A stretch of 64,000 nucleotides of DNA from Chitinophaga niabensis (lineage in GTDB: Bacteria; Bacteroidota; Bacteroidia; Chitinophagales; Chitinophagaceae). The stretch is from NCBI GenBank assembly GCA_017849435.1, contig JAFIGY010000002.1, forward strand, positions 310,001 to 374,000. The letters are read 5' to 3'. Below the pieces are notes generated by a model that was given only the letters and a program-made list of their open reading frames with translations, searched no databases and was not told where the DNA came from. The position numbers and the translations under genes are program-made. Below, in pieces: positions 43,189 through 64,000 of this stretch; the first letter of the stretch is position 1, and each line of letters opens with the position of its first letter.

Positions 43189-43218
43189 TTTGTTTTTTAA
43201 AAGATTATCTTACTTTTG
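43189..43218 (+). promoter_or_regulatory. Promoter of tRNA-Phe
   Basis: TTTG at 43189-43192, an 18-base spacer, then TACTTTTG at 43211-43218 (exact TAnnTTTG). Transcription would begin near 43225, 20 bases before the tRNA. Confidence 0.7.
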
Positions 43219-43244
43219 CAGTCCCCTGAACAAAATGGGGCACT

Positions 43245-43317
43245 GGTGCGGTAGCTCAGTTGGTAGAGCAAAGGACTGAAAATCCTTGTGTCGCCGGTTC
43301 GATCCCGGCCCACACCA
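43245..43317 (+). tRNA. tRNA-Phe (anticodon GAA)
   Basis: A 73-base cloverleaf: acceptor GGTGCGG (43245-43251), D-arm GCTC-AGTTGGTA-GAGC, anticodon arm AAGGA-CTGAAAA-TCCTT with GAA, variable GTGTC, T-arm GCCGG-TTCGATC-CCGGC, 3' acceptor CCACACC and discriminator A at 43317. CCA is not encoded (CGA follows). The acceptor stem has one mismatch, C49-type base at 43249 opposite A at 43312; a G there would pair. All other stems are perfect. Confidence 0.97.
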
Positions 43318-43320
43318 CGA

Positions 43321-43353
43321 AAAAAAGGTCATCATAATTGATGATCTTTTTTT
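43321..43353 (+). terminator. Terminator of the tRNA-Phe gene
   Basis: AAAAAAGGTCATCA and TGATGATCTTTTTTT form a 14-bp stem with one wobble around loop TAAT, followed by a T-run. It lies directly after the tRNA. Confidence 0.8.
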
Positions 43354-43679
43354 ATGCTTTTTACCGCCATTGACAAGTATTCCAACCCGCACAGAACGAC
43401 CTCAATTACGTTCAACAAATGAGCAAATGAATAATAATTGATAGACTCCAATAGTGAAGACAAATAGAAGAGGATTTGTTTGATATCTCCTCATTTCCGG
43501 CCACCAGAATAGATAAGGATTTGACACGATATGTGATGCCAATTCTATCCGCGAACATAAAAACAGAGGCAAGAGAGTTTTTACGCTTAGGAACAATATT
43601 AACGTTTCCTTAAACACTTATTAATTGGAGTTGTTTATTCTAATTAGGAAGAAAGTTGCACAACTTCTATCTTTATATC
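43354..43679. other. Left end of the accessory island, no gene recognised
   Basis: The G+C content drops here. Only short frames occur, for example a 22-codon ATG frame from 43355 (MLFTAIDKYSNPHRTT) and an antisense 71-codon frame without family features. A near -7 box TATCTTTA (43668-43675) lies just before the DUF488 gene. No integrase remnant was recognised. Confidence 0.45.
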
Positions 43680-44564
43680 ATGTTTTATAGACGTAAAATC
43701 ATTCTTGCTTTGTTAGAGCTTTTTGAAGGCGAACTTGAGAAAATCCGCCTGCAAAAGCTTTTATTCTTGTTTTGTCAGAAACAGGAAAAGGCTGATTATG
43801 ATTTTATCCCTTACAAGTATGGTTGCTATTCGTACTCTGCAAATGCCGATATGGCTGCAATGGTAACAAAGGGCTTATTAGCAGAAACTGCCAAGAGTTT
43901 TCACAAAATTGACGACGTTAATTATTTGAAGTTACTGAAAACACCTGATCTTTCTAAGCTCAGAAGTATAAAGGCCCTTTATGGTGAGATGGACAGCTCT
44001 GCGCTGATGAAGCACACATATAGGAATTTCCCATATTGGGCTATCAATAGCGTTAAAGCTCCTTCTATCTTATCAAAAGAAGAGTTGGACAAAGTAGAAA
44101 AGCAAAAGACTTTATCTGATCAAACGACCTTATACACAATTGGTTATGAGGGAGGAAGTTTAGAAAATTATTTAAATCGACTACTGAGAAATGATGTCAA
44201 GGTTTTAGTTGATGTCCGCAATAATCCTTTAAGTATGAAATTTGGCTTTAGTAAGAGTCTGCTTAAACGCTATTGTGAAAGCCTTGGTATTCTCTATATG
44301 CATTTTCCTGAGGTCGGAATTGTGTCAGATAAAAGACAGGCATTGAACACTCAAGCGGACTACGATAGATTATTTGCGGATTATCTTGAGAATGATATTC
44401 CCAAAACAATTGATACTCAAATGACTATCTTAAACGTTTTGCGGAAGTATAAGCGAATTGCTTTAACTTGCTTCGAGGCAAACCATTGCCAATGTCACAG
44501 AAGCCATTTAGCAAATGCAATAAAAACGCTGCCGGGCTTCGAGTATGAAGTAAAACATATATAG
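43680..44564 (+). CDS. SocA/YwgA-like N-terminal domain fused to DUF488
   Basis: 294 residues from the ATG at 43680. Residues about 1-75 (KIRLQKLLFLFCQKQ, FIPYKYGCYSYSANADMAAM) resemble the antitoxin-like SocA/Panacea (DUF4065) or YwgA folds, with the typical LQKLL and PYKYG motifs. Residues about 155-290 are a DUF488 domain: LYTIGYEGGSLENYLNRLL, VLVDVRNNPLSMKFGFSKS, and the late ALTCFEA...CQCHRSHLA. The fused order is unusual. The codons are AT-rich compared with flanking genes. The partner gene starts 7 bp after its stop. DUF488 is of unknown function. I infer a two-gene module, possibly toxin-antitoxin or defence. Confidence 0.82.
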   Translation: MFYRRKIILALLELFEGELEKIRLQKLLFLFCQKQEKADYDFIPYKYGCYSYSANADMAAMVTKGLLAETAKSFHKIDDVNYLKLLKTPDLSKLRSIKALYGEMDSSALMKHTYRNFPYWAINSVKAPSILSKEELDKVEKQKTLSDQTTLYTIGYEGGSLENYLNRLLRNDVKVLVDVRNNPLSMKFGFSKSLLKRYCESLGILYMHFPEVGIVSDKRQALNTQADYDRLFADYLENDIPKTIDTQMTILNVLRKYKRIALTCFEANHCQCHRSHLANAIKTLPGFEYEVKHI

Positions 44565-44571
44565 AGTTTAT

Positions 44572-45429
44572 ATGCCCCGAAAAAAAGTCCTTATAACTGT
44601 CACTACGTATCCCCTTCCATCAAGAAGTCACGACGAATTGGTTTGTACAGCTGGCATGCTTGAAACCGGGGAAATGATTAGAATTTATCCCGTTCCTCTT
44701 AGTTTTTTAGGAGACCTTAAAGGAAGTGGACAAGTCAAAAGCGTTAAGTATACCTGGATAGAACTGGACCTTAGAAAAAGAGCTGACGATTTCAGGCCAG
44801 AAAGCCATTCCCCAGTAAATTATGATTTCCACGATCTGCAAATAATAGGCGAACGTCTAGATACTAAAAATAATTGGCAGGCTCGTAAAGATGTTTGTCT
44901 CCGTAATGTTTACATAAATATGGACACACTTATTGCGGATTCAAGAGCCCCTAAAAATATATCCCTCGCTGTATTCAAACCTGCAAGTATTGTTAAATTA
45001 CATTGGGAAGAAACCGATAGAGAGTGGAAAAACGAATGGAAGGAGTTACGCAAGCAAGGCGATTTATTCCTTCCTGATAAAGACCCTGAAATAGTAATTC
45101 CTAAACTTCCTTATAAATTCAGCTATGTTTTTACTGATGAAACCGGTAAAGAACGGAAATTAATGATTGAGGATTGGGAAATCGGAGCGTTGTATTGGAA
45201 TTGTTTGAAATCAACCAATGGAAATGAAGAAGATACGCTTCAAAAAGTAAAGACAAAATATGAGGACGAGTTTAAAGAAAAAGACCTTCATTTTTTTATG
45301 GGGACAACTAAGCAATGGCATATGCGTCGTGCTACAAACCCATTCGTGATTATTGGTGTTTTCTACCCCAAGAAAGAAATTCCTAAAAAGGAACCATCCA
45401 AGAATGATATACAAGCATCATTGTTTTAG
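44572..45429 (+). CDS. Unrecognised partner of the DUF488 fusion
   Basis: 285 residues, no family recognised. It opens with a beta-strand-like KKVLITVTTYPLPS and an SHDELVCTAGMLETGEMIRIYPVP segment. This reads like a nucleotide- or nucleic-acid-associated alpha/beta domain in which a genomic-context 'request' protein is read, but that is a guess. Charged, Lys/Glu-rich linkers follow (EETDREWKNEWKELRKQG), with a conserved-looking WHMRRATNPFVIIGVFYP near the end. AT-rich codon use matches the DUF488 gene. The 7-bp gap says the two are made together. Confidence 0.72.
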   Translation: MPRKKVLITVTTYPLPSRSHDELVCTAGMLETGEMIRIYPVPLSFLGDLKGSGQVKSVKYTWIELDLRKRADDFRPESHSPVNYDFHDLQIIGERLDTKNNWQARKDVCLRNVYINMDTLIADSRAPKNISLAVFKPASIVKLHWEETDREWKNEWKELRKQGDLFLPDKDPEIVIPKLPYKFSYVFTDETGKERKLMIEDWEIGALYWNCLKSTNGNEEDTLQKVKTKYEDEFKEKDLHFFMGTTKQWHMRRATNPFVIIGVFYPKKEIPKKEPSKNDIQASLF

Positions 45430-45592
45430 GATTTCAAATCGGAACTATTACATTCATATATATATTGACAATTAACCCCGGAAAATAAAAGATACGAGCA
45501 CTTACTTAGTGTAATTAACAAGCGAGTTAGTACTGAATTCTCATTGCTATCTGTAGCATGAAAGTTTATTATAAAATGGTAAATTCGTTTAT

Positions 45593-46636
45593 ATGAAAAT
45601 GGATGGTTTGTTACTCACTCCCGATTCCCTGGATTTAGTGAAAATGTTTAATGAAATACATAAGTACATGAACGATCCGGCATTTATGGAGCTCCGTTCT
45701 AAAAAGCAACTGGAAGAGCTTAAGCAGCTCAATGAACATTCAACAAATGCATTATTTGATTGTTTTCAGGTAGATCTGAATGAGATTTTAGAAGATCGAA
45801 CGATAGGTGCAGATGATACAGTAACAACAAACAAAAAAATATTTCAAACATTCTGTTCATATAGCAATACTTGCAGGGGGATATCCAACAACCTATTGGA
45901 GTTGTGTGACAAGGAAGGTACAGGAAGAGATCTCATAATTGTTTGCAATGTAGGTCATATTATACGATTGATGGATCAACTGGAAGTCATGCTGATGTAT
46001 GGATATCCAGATGGAGCTTTCCGTGCATGGCGATCACTGTATGAAAATATTGTAGTAACTACGATCCTCCTTCACAGCCACGACAAAGATGTTTTTATGC
46101 GCTACAATGAACACAACCGCAAAAAAGAAAAAAGGCGGATCGACTTATATGAAGAATTGCGTACTAACCCCGGAGTTCTGGAGCATAACTTACCTTCAAT
46201 AAATCAAGAGGTAATAAATGAAAAATTCGAAAGAATCAGACAAAAGAATGGAAAGGACTTTTTTAGCGGTGAATACTCGTGGGCTTCGTCAATAATCGGA
46301 AAAAACAGAGTTACATTTAGAGAGCTGGAAGATTTTGCCGGATTTTCACTTCTACGCCTATTTTATGTAATAGCAAGCGATTATTCACATTCCAATTTTA
46401 ATAACATAGCAGATCATTTAGTACTTGAAGGTATTCATGTTGGCAACTTATCCTCGAAAGAAAAAAGTAATCGGATGCTTTTCTTGCCAATGGCGGCGGC
46501 AATACTTAGCCTTGACCCCCTCATCAAAAAGCTGATTACTGACTATTCCAATATATGTGAACAGGACTTCAATCTTACTGTCATTAAGGGGCTACAGACA
46601 GCTTTTTTTGAATGCCTCAAAGAAACTGTGTTATGA
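45593..46636 (+). CDS. DUF5677-like protein
   Basis: 347 residues, helical. The segment YGYPDGAFRAWRSLYENIVV with an arginine and Glu, and the DYSHSNFNN segment containing a histidine near residue 260, are what I associate with DUF5677. Function unknown, with relatives often in mobile or defence-rich regions. It is transcribed separately from the DUF488 pair (163 bp gap without a clear -7 box) and shares their AT-rich composition. Confidence 0.7.
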   Translation: MKMDGLLLTPDSLDLVKMFNEIHKYMNDPAFMELRSKKQLEELKQLNEHSTNALFDCFQVDLNEILEDRTIGADDTVTTNKKIFQTFCSYSNTCRGISNNLLELCDKEGTGRDLIIVCNVGHIIRLMDQLEVMLMYGYPDGAFRAWRSLYENIVVTTILLHSHDKDVFMRYNEHNRKKEKRRIDLYEELRTNPGVLEHNLPSINQEVINEKFERIRQKNGKDFFSGEYSWASSIIGKNRVTFRELEDFAGFSLLRLFYVIASDYSHSNFNNIADHLVLEGIHVGNLSSKEKSNRMLFLPMAAAILSLDPLIKKLITDYSNICEQDFNLTVIKGLQTAFFECLKETVL

Positions 46637-46779
46637 AGAACGAAAAAGAAAACTAGATAAGCAGAAACAATTTTCACTTATAAAAATGACACCTGAACTT
46701 CCCATATCCAATCGTAAATAACTTGTTCAGGTCGAAAAACAAATGTTATAACAGGGTCACGACCTCTCGGTTGAACGTT

Positions 46780-57058: not shown

Positions 57059-58927
57059 CTAACGTCCCATGTAAACCATGAGTATTTGCACATCGCTCGG
57101 ATTCACTCCGCTGATCCGGCTGGCTTGTCCCAAAGTACGTGGTTTGATTCGCGTGAATTTCTGCCGCGCTTCATTGGAAAGTGAAACGAGTTTCGTATAA
57201 TCAAAAGTTTCCGGGATCACGAGATCTTCCAGCTGGCTCATTTTTTTCACCAACTCATTTTCTTTTTCGATATACACATCGTACTTCACCTGTATCTCTA
57301 CCTGTTCCAATACTTCCCGGCTATATTTTGAAAGCGCGTTTGCCACTTTAGGGAGATTGTTTTTCATAGACATGATATCCAAACCCGGGCGAAGCAACAC
57401 CTGATGTGCTCTTTGTTTTTGTGTCAGTGGAGCAGATCCGTTCGCCTCCAGCCAGGCATTTGTTTCCTCCGGCTCAAGGGAAAGTTCTTTCAGGATCGTT
57501 TTTACCGTTTCCACACCTCCAAGTTTCTCCGCTGTTTTTCCCATTCTTTCTTCTGAAGCAAGACCGAGTCTGTAGCTTCTTTCCGTTAAACGGAGATCAG
57601 CATTGTCCTGACGCAGCAATGTTCTGAATTCCGCGCGGGAAGTGAACATGCGGTAAGGTTCGTCCGTTCCTTTGTTGATCAGGTCATCGATCAGCACACC
57701 GATGTAGGCTTCACTACGTTTCAGGACGAGGGGTTCCTGTTCCCTTACTTTCAAATGTGCATTGATCCCGGCCATCAAACCCTGGCAGGCAGCTTCTTCA
57801 TACCCGGTAGTTCCATTGATCTGGCCTGCAAAAAAGAGGTTAGATACTTGCTTCGTTTCCAAAGAAAACTGCAGCTGGGTAGGGGGGAAGTAGTCATATT
57901 CGATCGCATACCCGGGCCGGAACATCCTGGCGTTCTCAAAACCGGGTACAAGGCGAAGGGCTTTTTGTTGTACATCTTCAGGGAGGGACGTAGAAAATCC
58001 ATTCACATAGATTTCCACCGTATTCCATCCTTCCGGCTCTACGAACAGCTGATGCCGCTCTCTTTCCGCAAAACGGTTGATCTTATCTTCAATACTCGGG
58101 CAATAACGGGGTCCCACTCCCTGTATCCGACCCTGGAACATGGGGGACCGGTCAAAACCCGTACGAAGAATCTCATGTACCTGCTCACTTGTATAGGTAA
58201 TGAAACAACTTCTTTGTTGCTCCGGTTTTATCTTCTCCACATCCATATATGAGAAGCCGGTAATTTCTTCGTCTCCTTTTTGTTCCTCCATTTTGGAATA
58301 ATCCAGGCTCCTTCCATCAATACGGGGTGGGGTTCCTGTTTTGAGACGATCGCTTTCAAAGCCCAGGGAAACGAGTTGTTCTGTTATTCCCGTTGCCGCT
58401 TTTTCTGCCACCCGGCCTCCGCCAAACTGTTTATCTCCGATGTGAATCACTCCATTCAGGAAGGTTCCGTTTGTCAACACCACTGCTTTTGCCTGTATCT
58501 CATGCCCCAACCCGGTGATCACCCCGTGGCAAACACCGTTTTTTATGAGTAGTCCTTTCACCATATCCTGGTAAAAATCCACATTCGGGGTATTTTCCAG
58601 GGCTTCCCGCCACTTAGCCGCGAAAAGCATACGGTCGTTCTGGGTACGTGGACTCCACATAGCGGGACCTTTACTCCTGTTCAGCATCCGGAACTGGATC
58701 ATGGATTGATCCGTAACGATCCCGGAATATCCCCCGAGAGCATCTATTTCACGAACAATCTGGCCTTTTGCAATACCTCCCATGGCCGGGTTACAGCTCA
58801 TTTGGGCTATCGTCTGCATATTCATTGTCACCAGCAGAACTTTTGACCCCATATTTGCTGCAGCGGCAGCCGCCTCGCATCCTGCGTGTCCGGCACCAAC
58901 AACAATAACATCGTAAGATGGAAACAT
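57059..58927 (-). CDS. mnmG: tRNA uridine-5-carboxymethylaminomethyl modification enzyme MnmG
   Basis: 622 residues from the ATG at 58927 (MFPSYDVIVVGAGHAGCEAA). The frame stays open to 59023 but that part translates a parS site (the telltale FHVEH) and is not protein. Key motifs: GAGHAGCE for FAD, CNPAMGGIAKGQIVREIDALGG, GGRVAEKAATGITE, TGTPPRIDG and EAACQGLMAGINA. With MnmE it installs the cmnm5 group at U34. mnmG (gidA) is often near the replication origin, which fits the rest of this end of the window. Confidence 0.97.
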   Translation of the reverse strand: MFPSYDVIVVGAGHAGCEAAAAAANMGSKVLLVTMNMQTIAQMSCNPAMGGIAKGQIVREIDALGGYSGIVTDQSMIQFRMLNRSKGPAMWSPRTQNDRMLFAAKWREALENTPNVDFYQDMVKGLLIKNGVCHGVITGLGHEIQAKAVVLTNGTFLNGVIHIGDKQFGGGRVAEKAATGITEQLVSLGFESDRLKTGTPPRIDGRSLDYSKMEEQKGDEEITGFSYMDVEKIKPEQQRSCFITYTSEQVHEILRTGFDRSPMFQGRIQGVGPRYCPSIEDKINRFAERERHQLFVEPEGWNTVEIYVNGFSTSLPEDVQQKALRLVPGFENARMFRPGYAIEYDYFPPTQLQFSLETKQVSNLFFAGQINGTTGYEEAACQGLMAGINAHLKVREQEPLVLKRSEAYIGVLIDDLINKGTDEPYRMFTSRAEFRTLLRQDNADLRLTERSYRLGLASEERMGKTAEKLGGVETVKTILKELSLEPEETNAWLEANGSAPLTQKQRAHQVLLRPGLDIMSMKNNLPKVANALSKYSREVLEQVEIQVKYDVYIEKENELVKKMSQLEDLVIPETFDYTKLVSLSNEARQKFTRIKPRTLGQASRISGVNPSDVQILMVYMGR

Positions 58928-58994
58928 ACTTGAATTTTGAAAGTGCAAAGTTAAGTATAAAAGAGGTTTGGTAGGGAGAAAGAAAGCGGGGAGA

Positions 58995-59010
58995 TGTTCC
59001 ACGTGGAACA
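58995..59010. promoter_or_regulatory. parS: parS site 1
   Basis: TGTTCCACGTGGAACA, a perfect 16-bp palindrome identical to a known ParB binding site form (extended to 20 bp, 58993-59012). Lies between mnmG and ybeY, 67 bp upstream of the mnmG start. Confidence 0.93.
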
Positions 59011-59208
59011 TCGAATTAAGCACGAAGTATGCGAAGTATTCAAAAAGGAATATGAACCTTCATGCGAGTATCTAATGGGATAAGAATCTGCTAAACGATC
59101 AAAGGAGATTCGAGACAGAGGCGCTTGCACATCAAGTAGACATTAATCAAACTGGAAACCTTAAGAGGAAGCTATGAACTTAAACGAATTCCCCATCGAA
59201 AACCCGAA

Positions 59209-59224
59209 TGTTCCACGTGGAACA
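59209..59224. promoter_or_regulatory. parS: parS site 2
   Basis: The same 16-bp palindrome TGTTCCACGTGGAACA, extended to 22 bp (59206-59227). It is 214 bp from site 1 and ends 8 bp before the ybeY stop. Between the two sites I recognise no gene. Confidence 0.93.
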
Positions 59225-60785: not shown

Positions 60786-60819
60786 ATAAAAATAAAAGGG
60801 CTGCCTCCCCGGCAACCCT
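60786..60819 (-). terminator. Intrinsic terminator of nadA
   Basis: AGGGCTGCC (60797-60805) pairs with GGCAACCCT (60811-60819) with one wobble around TCCCC. On the minus strand a TTTTATTTTTAT tract follows. Confidence 0.75.
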
Positions 60820-60844
60820 CTCCATTCCTTTTTGACAACAAATG

Positions 60845-61852
60845 TTATAACCCCGCCTGCGCACTGATCTCCAGCATCCGGTCGATTGGCTTCCGCGCTG
60901 CCAGTCGCAATGCTTCATTCATCGTGATCTCCGGTTCCTCATACTCCATACAGAGATACAATTTCTCCAGCGTGTTGAGCTTCATATGCGGACAGTCGTT
61001 GCAGGCACAAGCGTTATTCGGAGGTGCCGGTATAAATGTCTTATGCGGATTCTCTTTTTGCATCTGGTGCAGGATACCGGTTTCCGTTACCACAATATAT
61101 TCCTGCGCATCATCCCGCTGCGTGAATTTCAACAAACCGGTAGTAGACCCGATATAATCGGCAACAGCCAATATCGGCGCTTCACATTCCGGATGCGCGA
61201 TGATCTTCGCCTGAGGATGCTGCACTTTCAACCGTGTGATCTTTTCCAGACTGAAAATCTCGTGCACCATACAGGCACCGTTCCACAACACCATATCCCT
61301 GCCTGTTTTCTTCACTAAATAAGCACCCAGGTTCCGGTCCGGTGCAAAAATGATGGGTTGATCCTTAGGCACGCTTTCGATGATCTTTTCCGCGTTGGAA
61401 CTGGTGCAGATAATATCGCTCAGCGCCTTGATACCGGCGGAACAATTAATATAAGATATCACGATATGATCCGGATACTTGTCGCGGAACTTTTTGAACA
61501 GTTCCGGCGGCGCACTGTCTGCCAGCGAACAACCGGCCTTGAGATCGGGGAGGAGCACTTTTTTCTGCGGGCTGAGGATCTTCGCCGTTTCCGCCATGAA
61601 GTGCACGCCGGCGAACACAATAATGTCCGCGTCCGTTTTCGCTGCCTGCTGGCTCAAACCAAGACTGTCCCCGATGTAATCCGCCACATCCTGAATATCC
61701 GGTTCCTGGTAATAATGCGCCAGCACGATCGCATTCTTTTCTTTCTTCAGCCGTGCTATCTCAGCAAAAAGATCCAGCTTCACATCCACTTCCATATCTA
61801 AAAAACCTTTTTGCTGCAAATTTTTTTTCGCTTCCGTAATTGCCGTAAACAT
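60845..61852 (-). CDS. nadA: Quinolinate synthase A
   Basis: 335 residues. NadA condenses iminoaspartate with dihydroxyacetone phosphate to give quinolinate, using a [4Fe-4S] cluster. Visible motifs: [49 protein letters not shown], and the cysteines in CEAPI and [13 protein letters not shown]. The start is the first ATG, in a weak context. It is the gene immediately left of the origin-like region and is read away from it. Confidence 0.96.
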
Positions 61853-62604
61853 AGTTATAGAATTATTTTTCTTTTTAAAAAGAAGAAAAGCCCACTACTA
61901 TTAGGGGTGTGAATATGGGGGAAACTCATCTTTCCCACTATATACAAATGTACTTGTTATTATTTTTTTGTGTGCTATCCACATGGAATTAACAGCGCTT
62001 TTTCCCGCGGATGCTGGATTTGGCATGCTTTATCCACAGTGTGGACAGGGAAAATGTTGCATAACTTTTTATGGCTTTCAGTATTAAGAAAATGTTAAAA
62101 GAGGCAGGTTATGCACGGGTGCATCTCCCGGAATTTTCCGCCGCAGAAAAACAAATTTAGTTTTACCTCTTCCGGAAGGCATGTTTTCCCATCAAAATTC
62201 CGGTTTACCCCATGGTTATTAACAGGATTTGTGGAAAAAACACCCCGGTTTTCCGAAATCGTCCCGCGAAAGGATTTTTTATCTTTCAGCGATTTAATTC
62301 ACAAATTGTTGTGGATTATATCCGGCAGATGCTTATTTTGTGGATAACCCTCTAATTATGATCATCGGTGGCGTGACCGGAAACGATGGGATAGTCAGGG
62401 GAAAACAAGATTTTTAACAACCAATACCTGTGCATTAAAATTAAAAGAAATGTGGAAAAAGTGTGAATGAAGATAAAAAACGACCCACTCTAAATACTGC
62501 TCAAACCCTTTACTGTATTGGCTTTGAAGGCTAAAAAACCTATTTTGCAGTTACAACTATTTTATTCTATTTTTGCTACCTCTAAAATTTAGACAATATA
62601 TTAT
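61853..62604. other. oriC: Probable chromosomal replication origin (oriC)
   Basis: 752 bp with no credible gene. It contains DnaA boxes: two exact TTATCCACA (62030-62038 plus; 62339-62347 minus) and two TTTTCCACA fitting TTWTNCACA (62230-62238 and 62451-62459, both minus). Near matches are CTATCCACA 61975-61983, TTATGCACG 62109-62117 and TAATCCACA 62310-62318 (minus). Left-hand boxes point right and right-hand boxes point left. AT-rich candidate unwinding stretches flank the cluster (61861-61971 and 62400-62450). Flanking genes read outward; mnmG and two parS sites lie 3 kb away. No GC-skew was computed. Confidence 0.8.
62544..62575 (+). promoter_or_regulatory. Promoter of ppiD
   Basis: TTTG at 62544-62547, a 20-base spacer, then TATTTTTG at 62568-62575 (exact TAnnTTTG). 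Transcription would begin near 62582, leaving a leader of about 23 nt. Confidence 0.72.
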
Positions 62605-64000
62605 ATGTCAGTTATTCAGAAAATCAGGGACAAATATGCTATCGTTATCATTGTATTGATATGCGTGGCTATTGTGAGCTTTTTGCTGCAGGACGTTTTT
62701 TTCGGTAAGAACTCTATGTTCAGACAGTCTACCTCCGTTGGTAAAGTGAACGGTGTGGATCTGGATTACCGCGAATATGTTCAGCGGATAGAAAACGCGC
62801 AGAACCAAGCGCGCCAGCAGATGCAGGGTGCTTCGCTGGATGAGCAGACGCAGCAATACATCCGTGAGCAGGCATGGGATCAGTTCCTCCGTGAGCATAT
62901 CATGCAAGAGCAGTATGAAGAACTGGGCATTGAAGTAACACAGGCAGAGGTGGCTGACCAGATCACGGGTAAAAACCCTCACCCCCTGGTGCTCCAGAAT
63001 TTCACCAATCCCCAAACCGGGAAATTCGATCCTACTATCCTGGACCGCGTAAGAGAGAACGCCCGCCAGGATCAGTCCGGTCAATTGAGCCAGCAATTGC
63101 TGGCCTTTGATCAGATGATCGCGGAATATCAGAAGAACCTCAAATATATCACGTTGGTACATCAGGGTATTTATTATCCGAAATGGCTTGCACAGATGCA
63201 GATTGCTGATAATGCACAGACCGCTAACATCGGTTATGTACAGGTTCCTTATGCCAGCATCTCTGACAGCACCATTAAAGTGACCGATGATGAACTGAAT
63301 AAATATATACAAGACAACAAAGCGCGCTTTGAAGTTCCCGAGAGCCGCAAAGTGGAATATATTTCTTTCGATGCGATCCCTTCCGCTACGGATTCTACTG
63401 CTACGCTCACAGAACTGAACAAGCTGAAAGCTGAACTGGATTCAACGCCTGACATCGCCGGTTTCATGAAACTGAATTCAGAACTCGGTTATTATGACGG
63501 GTATGTTTCCCGCACTGCGGTTCAGTTCCCGCTGAAAGATTCTGTGATTGACCTGCCTGTTGGTAAAACATTCGGACCTTACCGCGATAACAACCTCATG
63601 GTATATGCCAGGATGATGGACCGTAAAACATTGCCTGACACCGTGAAGTTTCGTCAGATCCTGATTGCGATGCATCAGGGTATGACGGATTCTGCTGCAA
63701 AACGTCGCGCAGATAGTCTCGAAGCGGTTGTTCGTGGCGGTGGAGATATCGCCGCACTGGCAAGAGAATTCTCCGATGATCCCGCCGGTAAACAAAATGG
63801 CGGGGAGTATACCCTTACGCCCAACGGTTATTTTGCCAATGAACTGCAACTCGTGAAAGACTTCGCTTTCTCCGGTTCCAACGGACAGTTGAAAGTGGTG
63901 AAAATGCCGATTGGTTATGCCGTAGTAAAAATCACGGAGCAGAAAAATTTTGGCCCCGCTATTAAAGTTGCCTATCTCGCCAAACGTGTAGACGCCAGCT
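62605..64000 (+). CDS. ppiD: PpiD-type peptidyl-prolyl isomerase chaperone (runs off window)
   Basis: At least 465 residues from the ATG at 62605; the 3' end is outside. An N-terminal membrane helix (residues 12-29, AIVIIVLICVAIVSFLLQ) anchors it. Then a SurA/PpiD-like helical domain (VGKVNGVDLDYREYVQRIE, IREQAWDQFLREHIMQEQYEELG) and a parvulin-like domain beginning near residue 345 (TVKFRQILIAMHQG...DIAALAREFSDDPAGK). It is an envelope folding catalyst for newly exported proteins. The promoter is well formed and lies at the right edge of the origin region. Confidence 0.92.
   Translation, partial: MSVIQKIRDKYAIVIIVLICVAIVSFLLQDVFFGKNSMFRQSTSVGKVNGVDLDYREYVQRIENAQNQARQQMQGASLDEQTQQYIREQAWDQFLREHIMQEQYEELGIEVTQAEVADQITGKNPHPLVLQNFTNPQTGKFDPTILDRVRENARQDQSGQLSQQLLAFDQMIAEYQKNLKYITLVHQGIYYPKWLAQMQIADNAQTANIGYVQVPYASISDSTIKVTDDELNKYIQDNKARFEVPESRKVEYISFDAIPSATDSTATLTELNKLKAELDSTPDIAGFMKLNSELGYYDGYVSRTAVQFPLKDSVIDLPVGKTFGPYRDNNLMVYARMMDRKTLPDTVKFRQILIAMHQGMTDSAAKRRADSLEAVVRGGGDIAALAREFSDDPAGKQNGGEYTLTPNGYFANELQLVKDFAFSGSNGQLKVVKMPIGYAVVKITEQKNFGPAIKVAYLAKRVDAS

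Follow-up and report, generated by a model that had tools for sequence, protein, structure and literature searches.

The classical dnaA-dnaN origin carries DnaA boxes and an AT-rich unwinding region, and has parS nearby. In the oriC of Bacillus subtilis a basal unwinding system (BUS) has been described, in which tandem DnaA boxes (boxes 6/7) are followed by a short GC-rich spacer, DnaA-trios and AT-rich DNA (PMC8287927, PMC10721633, PMC6669920). According to the sections of these papers used here, DnaA-trios are defined as 3'-GAT-5' type and at least three of them are required at most 16 bp from a DnaA box, a potential BUS is predicted in 1755 of 2070 origins (PMC8287927), and Asn187 of B. subtilis DnaA is a trio-contacting residue (PMC10721633). 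In Bacteroidetes, oriC commonly lies far from dnaA according to DoriC, and the predicted oriC of Prevotella intermedia chromosome 1 combines a skew transition and multiple DnaA boxes with dnaA elsewhere; the sections of that paper used here do not mention a BUS or give the neighbour genes (PMC4755523).

Both the BUS and origin positions remote from dnaA are therefore known already. Among the papers listed by our literature search on Chitinophaga or nadA and the replication origin, there was no report of the site described below, of a family-wide core or of a link to nadA (DoriC may hold Chitinophaga predictions), and no paper on the DnaA-trio in Bacteroidetes was found.

A predicted origin between nadA and a ppiD-type gene

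Here, we analysed a stretch of 64,000 nucleotides (the window; G000:C16:310001-374000) from a Chitinophaga bacterium, whose genome of 5,002,990 bp is a draft of 23 contigs; contig C16, which carries the window, is 792,586 bp long. From its sequence, a 752-bp gap in the window is predicted to be the chromosomal origin oriC, with a probability of about 95%. The gap and its surroundings contain the following features.

61853..62604, no strand: oriC region (predicted), 752-bp non-coding gap between the divergent nadA and ppiD-type genes
60845..61852, minus: nadA, quinolinate synthase (PF02445, E 6.6e-125)
62605..64000, plus, running beyond the window end: ppiD-type peptidyl-prolyl isomerase (SurA_N_2, Rotamase_3)
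58996..59009, no strand: parS-like palindrome GTTCCACGTGGAAC, first of the genome's two GTTYCACGTGRAAC sites
59210..59223, no strand: parS-like palindrome GTTCCACGTGGAAC, second of the genome's two GTTYCACGTGRAAC sites

The original prediction had read this gap as a probable chromosome origin, and the skew minimum of the contig, the box cluster, the parS-like sites, the BUS and its conservation all support that reading. The flanking genes face outward as it described, and mnmG (57059-59023) and the parS-like palindromes are indeed close by. Its view that the setting is not the classical one also holds, since in contrast to a dnaA-dnaN origin the gap is flanked by nadA and a ppiD-type gene and dnaA is on another contig. 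The genes nadA, ppiD-type, mnmG and ybeY around the gap are core genes. No Rfam match was found across 60800-63000.

The cumulative GC-skew minimum of contig C16, expected here by the original prediction, falls within the gap at C16:371898 (window 61898), while the maximum is the right contig end. The best two-segment change point of the skew is C16:372000 (t = 10.7). As the genome is a draft of 23 contigs, this minimum is that of the contig. The sole Bac_DnaA match of the genome is at C2:310272-310757, so dnaA is not adjacent to the gap. On this contig (C2; 864,607 bp), 11 of 13 sampled stretches are skew-positive and the negative ones are the first and the last sampled, thus no skew switch around dnaA appears among the 13 stretches. 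The 20 kb around dnaA contain one TTTTCCACA.

Exactly two GTTYCACGTGRAAC sites exist in the 5.0-Mb genome, at distances of 2.7-2.9 kb to the first trio of the BUS, and ParB_N has one match, on contig C15. In relatives, parS-like sites were found in 12 of 15 genomes, 2-4 in each and all at most 20 kb from the BUS (3.7-19.1 kb for the first-listed sites); the other three of the 15 have no parS-like site.

Elsewhere in the window, the GC content of 43200-46700 is 36-39% against about 50%, just past a tRNA-Phe gene (43245-43318). This low-GC stretch is possibly an inserted island; one of its frames, among others, is presumably DUF488-like.

Spread DnaA boxes in the gap

Six DnaA boxes are spread over the gap, the first of them kept across the genus and the other five also covered by the genus alignment.

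61975..61983, plus: DnaA box CTATCCACA, one mismatch
62030..62038, plus: DnaA box TTATCCACA, exact
62230..62238, minus: DnaA box TTTTCCACA, exact
62310..62318, minus: DnaA box TAATCCACA, one mismatch
62339..62347, minus: DnaA box TTATCCACA, exact
62451..62459, minus: DnaA box TTTTCCACA, exact, followed by a conserved TGTGAAT

All four exact boxes of the original prediction (two TTATCCACA and two TTTTCCACA) are present, and the left-hand boxes are on the plus strand and the right-hand ones on the minus strand, as it stated. It had also counted three near matches; at the level of one mismatch to TTATCCACA, two are present. The motif TTWTCCACA occurs 7 times in the window, compared with a mean of 1.44 after shuffling (7 or more in 0 of 100 shuffles). 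The cluster in the gap is the densest of contig C16, and when 24 sites were scattered at random 20,000 times, four within 750 bp were obtained 0 times.

The box order was compared within Chitinophaga. Among 24 relatives, chosen from loci matched by the 22-base pattern TYCACANCCNTAATAGTARTRG (see below), four (L222, L224, L228 and L231) share all four strict boxes of the gap, in matching order and at nearly the same places. The other 20 differ: two strict boxes are present in 15, three in 3, one in 1 and four rearranged boxes in 1. In the alignment of 25 Chitinophaga sequences (window included), the left boxes persist as near matches and the spread boxes are recognisable. Outside the genus, strict boxes are variable and the constant core is the BUS adjoining nadA. 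Over 57 loci, the mean number of strict TTWTCCACA is 1.05 on the upstream side of ppiD, taken up to 1.5 kb, and 0.018 downstream. Strict counts were dropped as a conservation test because they are too variable beyond the genus, and motif discovery was used instead.

A predicted basal unwinding system at the left edge

At its left edge, the gap carries a BUS on the minus strand that the original prediction overlooked. It is made of two weak boxes and DnaA-trios and reads TTTCCCCCATATTCACA-CCCC-TAATAGTAG from 61924 to 61895.

61895..61924, minus: BUS core (match of profile R1, 40-locus family alignment and 25-sequence Chitinophaga alignment)
61924-61916, minus: BUS box1 TTTCCCCCA, three mismatches to TTATCCACA, weak
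61916-61908, minus: BUS box2 ATATTCACA, two mismatches to TTATCCACA
61907-61904, minus: GC spacer CCCC, 4 bp between box2 and the trios
61903-61895, minus: DnaA-trios TAA TAG TAG, 4 bp past box2
61845..61894, no strand: AT-rich DNA beside the trios, presumed strand-opening site (nearest-neighbour energy), entering the first bases of nadA

Like the BUS of B. subtilis, this one has tandem boxes, a short GC-rich spacer, trios and AT-rich DNA, and its three trios lie within 16 bp of a DnaA box. It differs in that it adjoins nadA, its own box1 is weak, the trios are TAATAGTAATAG or TAATAGTAG, and 3 of 40 relatives are irregular. The upstream one of the tandem boxes is usually nearer to the consensus; here it is the poorer one (TTTCCCCCA), whereas the family majority (TTTTCCACA, sometimes TTATCCACA) fits. 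Profile R1 of the BUS, whose training set included the window's own BUS sequence, has one strong match in the genome (window 61879-61926; 42.5 bits), and the second-best match scores 12.7.

By nearest-neighbour energy, a property of the sequence only, the 40-bp stretches with the lowest stability within 61700-62700 are those starting at 61845-61851, and the AT content is 79% over 61853-61894. The DnaA of this genome has the usual set of domains (N-terminal, AAA+ and helix-turn-helix), and in alignment with B. subtilis DnaA (8btg) it carries Asn at the Asn187 position, as counted manually on the alignment.

Conservation of the BUS in relatives

Of the family genomes, 58 have ppiD, and 57 loci from these were examined (G033 has a partial ppiD match only). 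The nadA-gap-ppiD order is found in 39 of the 57 loci, with gaps of 456-905 bp, and the words enriched over these 39 gaps are DnaA boxes, CTATTTTTGC near ppiD, and TAATAGTAATAG. The last of these words lies some 50 bases ahead of nadA on the minus strand (the distance is 51 in the window and 42-56 in 93 of 105 listed loci) and directly follows TTWTCCAC, ANTYCACA and four GC-rich bases. All 39 divergent nadA/ppiD loci contain the BUS, as does one further locus.

The 40 aligned family loci (window included) have a common BUS spacing, apart from an irregular trio run in L061, L072 and L092 which needs one extra base in the alignment. In most aligned relatives the trios are TAATAGTAATAG, compared with TAATAGTAG in this genome. 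These loci were picked with a pattern, on which alignment columns -11 to -5 are conditioned, as is the start of the trios; in columns independent of this pattern, -20 is T in 40 of 40 and -18 is T in 38 of 40. Three loci (L040, L042 and L077) were placed by hand, and the window locus (L039) was corrected by hand after a wrong pattern pick. In the 25 Chitinophaga gaps (window included) the BUS block is nearly invariant.

In 20 family genomes outside the training set, R1 matched at E<=0.05 in 19 and at E<1e-7 in 12; none was found at E<1e-7 in the remaining 8, one of which has none at E<=0.05 either. In 13 of these 20 genomes, nadA lies within the 1.5-kb flank of the match.

We also scanned the species genomes with TYCACANCCNTAATAGTARTRG, a pattern chosen after the family was seen, and found at least 119 matching stretches (L219-L337). 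Among these listed matches, the start of nadA is within 1 kb in 106, ppiD is on the opposite side in 96, and either gene is present in 115; two have neither gene, and two lack nadA in a stretch too short on the ppiD side. By taxon, the 80 that were named are mostly Chitinophaga, further genera which we take to belong to Chitinophagaceae, and MAGs labelled Bacteroidetes or Sphingobacteriales; one is labelled Flavobacteriales (with neither nadA nor ppiD) and one Sphingomonadales.

Over the class, 91 of 197 genomes have an R1 match at E<=0.1, most of them weak and short and not counted as BUS. The two listed genomes that share the order but not the family gave no match, and good scores are rare among the members of the class. 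The best match outside the family is in G146 (3.6e-9), followed by G075, G248, G228 and G174 (2.5e-5 to 3.4e-4). Frames read beside the BUS of G146, G075 and G228 include neither nadA nor ppiD, and tblastn found neither gene at L153-L157. The BUS of G146 (L153; G146:C2:219486) adjoins an acyl-CoA-synthetase-like gene by frame reading, and the skew changes sign there. As this locus belongs to another family, the BUS may mark origins more widely in the class. In the family member G031, a weak BUS-like match (L155; G031:C1:1082667-1082720) lies between an ABC transporter gene and a polyhydroxyalkanoate-synthase-like gene by frame reading, away from ppiD, and is possibly a relocated origin.

GC skew around the BUS of relatives

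In several relatives the skew changes sign at the BUS or close to it. The local minimum of G004 is 5.1 kb off (42 kb examined). In G022, where ppiD is 28 kb away, the local minimum (640,660) is about 0.5 kb from the BUS (640,180). G018 has ppiD at a distance of 107 kb; its five samples left of the BUS are negative and the three on the right positive. In these two genomes, where ppiD has moved, the switch of the skew stays with the BUS. G146 belongs to another family, and its skew is -0.065 on the left and +0.055 on the right, from one 15-kb sample per side. G014 is weakly in line (-0.006 and +0.007), and G055 is broadly in line but noisy, with a local minimum 18.6 kb from the BUS (41 kb examined). 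No confirmation at the BUS came from G006 of the same genus, in which five of five samples are negative, or from G021, in which the skew is positive on both sides. Nor did G031, whose BUS match is itself weak, give confirmation, as its samples are mixed.

Promoter-like elements and the link to nadA

Three promoter-like elements are located in the gap; the two that point towards nadA are of the TAnnTTTG type, which we take to be the Bacteroidota promoter motif.

61945..61952, minus: TAnnTTTG-type -7 element TACATTTG of a probable promoter for nadA, with the first trio 49 bases downstream
62152..62159, minus: TAAATTTG, possible second nadA-ward promoter (conserved block in the 25-sequence Chitinophaga footprint alignment)
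62568..62575, plus: TATTTTTG, probably the -7 element in the promoter of the ppiD-type gene (genus conservation, family word enrichment)

On the ppiD side, CTATTTTTGC is present in 28 of 39 family gaps, compared with 0.0 expected from shuffles. The conserved TAnnTTTG inside the predicted oriC, TAAATTTG, possibly belongs to a second promoter or a short RNA.

Among the listed loci (at least 119 matches), a TAnnTTTG precedes the trios by 47-50 bases in 68 of the 105 with nadA adjoining and in 3 of the 13 with nadA not found, overall in 71 of 118, against a background of 0.0016 per position. At those three loci the stretches break off 12-23 bases beyond the first base of the trios, too early for nadA to be visible. 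Three other loci (L225, L254 and L307) keep the BUS, and no nadA was found in the 772-2915 bases within reach; there the TAnnTTTG element is missing too; G057 likewise keeps the BUS with no nadA found. The promoter thus seems to be tied to nadA while the BUS can persist without it, which indicates that the BUS serves the origin. As the nadA promoter precedes the BUS, the BUS is probably transcribed together with nadA.

Upstream of the trios in L219-L337, sites resembling DnaA boxes (GTGGATAA-like) are most frequent at -67 to -70 and at -78 to -80, near the promoter, in counts of overlapping words in which one site may count twice; the two peaks are about 10 bases apart, which is one helical turn. 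It is conceivable, if rather unlikely, that the unwinding element in the transcribed leader of nadA forms a family-wide link between NAD supply and initiation, one that might run both ways: expression of the NAD synthesis gene may open or obstruct the origin, and nadA may in turn be controlled by DnaA on these sites.

Alternative explanations and proposed mechanism

The gap might instead be merely a regulatory region shared by nadA and ppiD, on whose boxes DnaA acts as a transcription factor. Conserved promoter-like elements for both genes do lie in the gap, and the BUS nearly always has nadA as a neighbour (in 106 of at least 119 listed matches). Such a region would not account for the coincidence of the GC-skew minimum and the parS-like sites with the gap, for the BUS retained at L225, L254, L307 and G057, in the first three of which the promoter element has gone as well, or for the BUS of G146, which is beside other genes and where the skew still switches; we regard this explanation as very unlikely.

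A locus that titrates DnaA (datA-like), near the origin rather than at it, would also hold several boxes within a short gap, but it requires neither trios nor a skew switch, whereas this gap has a BUS of fixed spacing that is unique in the genome and the skew minimum inside it, which leaves this explanation highly improbable. Box clusters can be plasmid-borne too, so an integrated plasmid or other mobile replicon might have brought its own origin; with core genes on the flanks and the nadA-gap-ppiD order in 39 of 57 family loci, this is hardly credible at all.

If the gap is the chromosomal origin, DnaA-ATP would gather at two places, the boxes spread over 61975-62459 and the tandem boxes of the left edge. 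From the latter, a DnaA filament would extend along one strand over the DnaA-trios (61903-61895) and may open the AT-rich DNA just before nadA. Helicase would then be loaded at the opened DNA and two forks would depart in opposite directions, and ParB, presumably bound to the two nearby parS-like sites, would segregate the origins.

Significance

In summary, the analysis proposes an origin at base level, together with its unwinding element, for the large family Chitinophagaceae, in a phylum with origins away from dnaA. The 22-base pattern would locate the origin in many draft genomes, which may serve growth-rate estimates from coverage and oriC vectors. Moreover, with a nearly constant BUS beside nadA, the idea that NAD synthesis is linked to initiation becomes testable.
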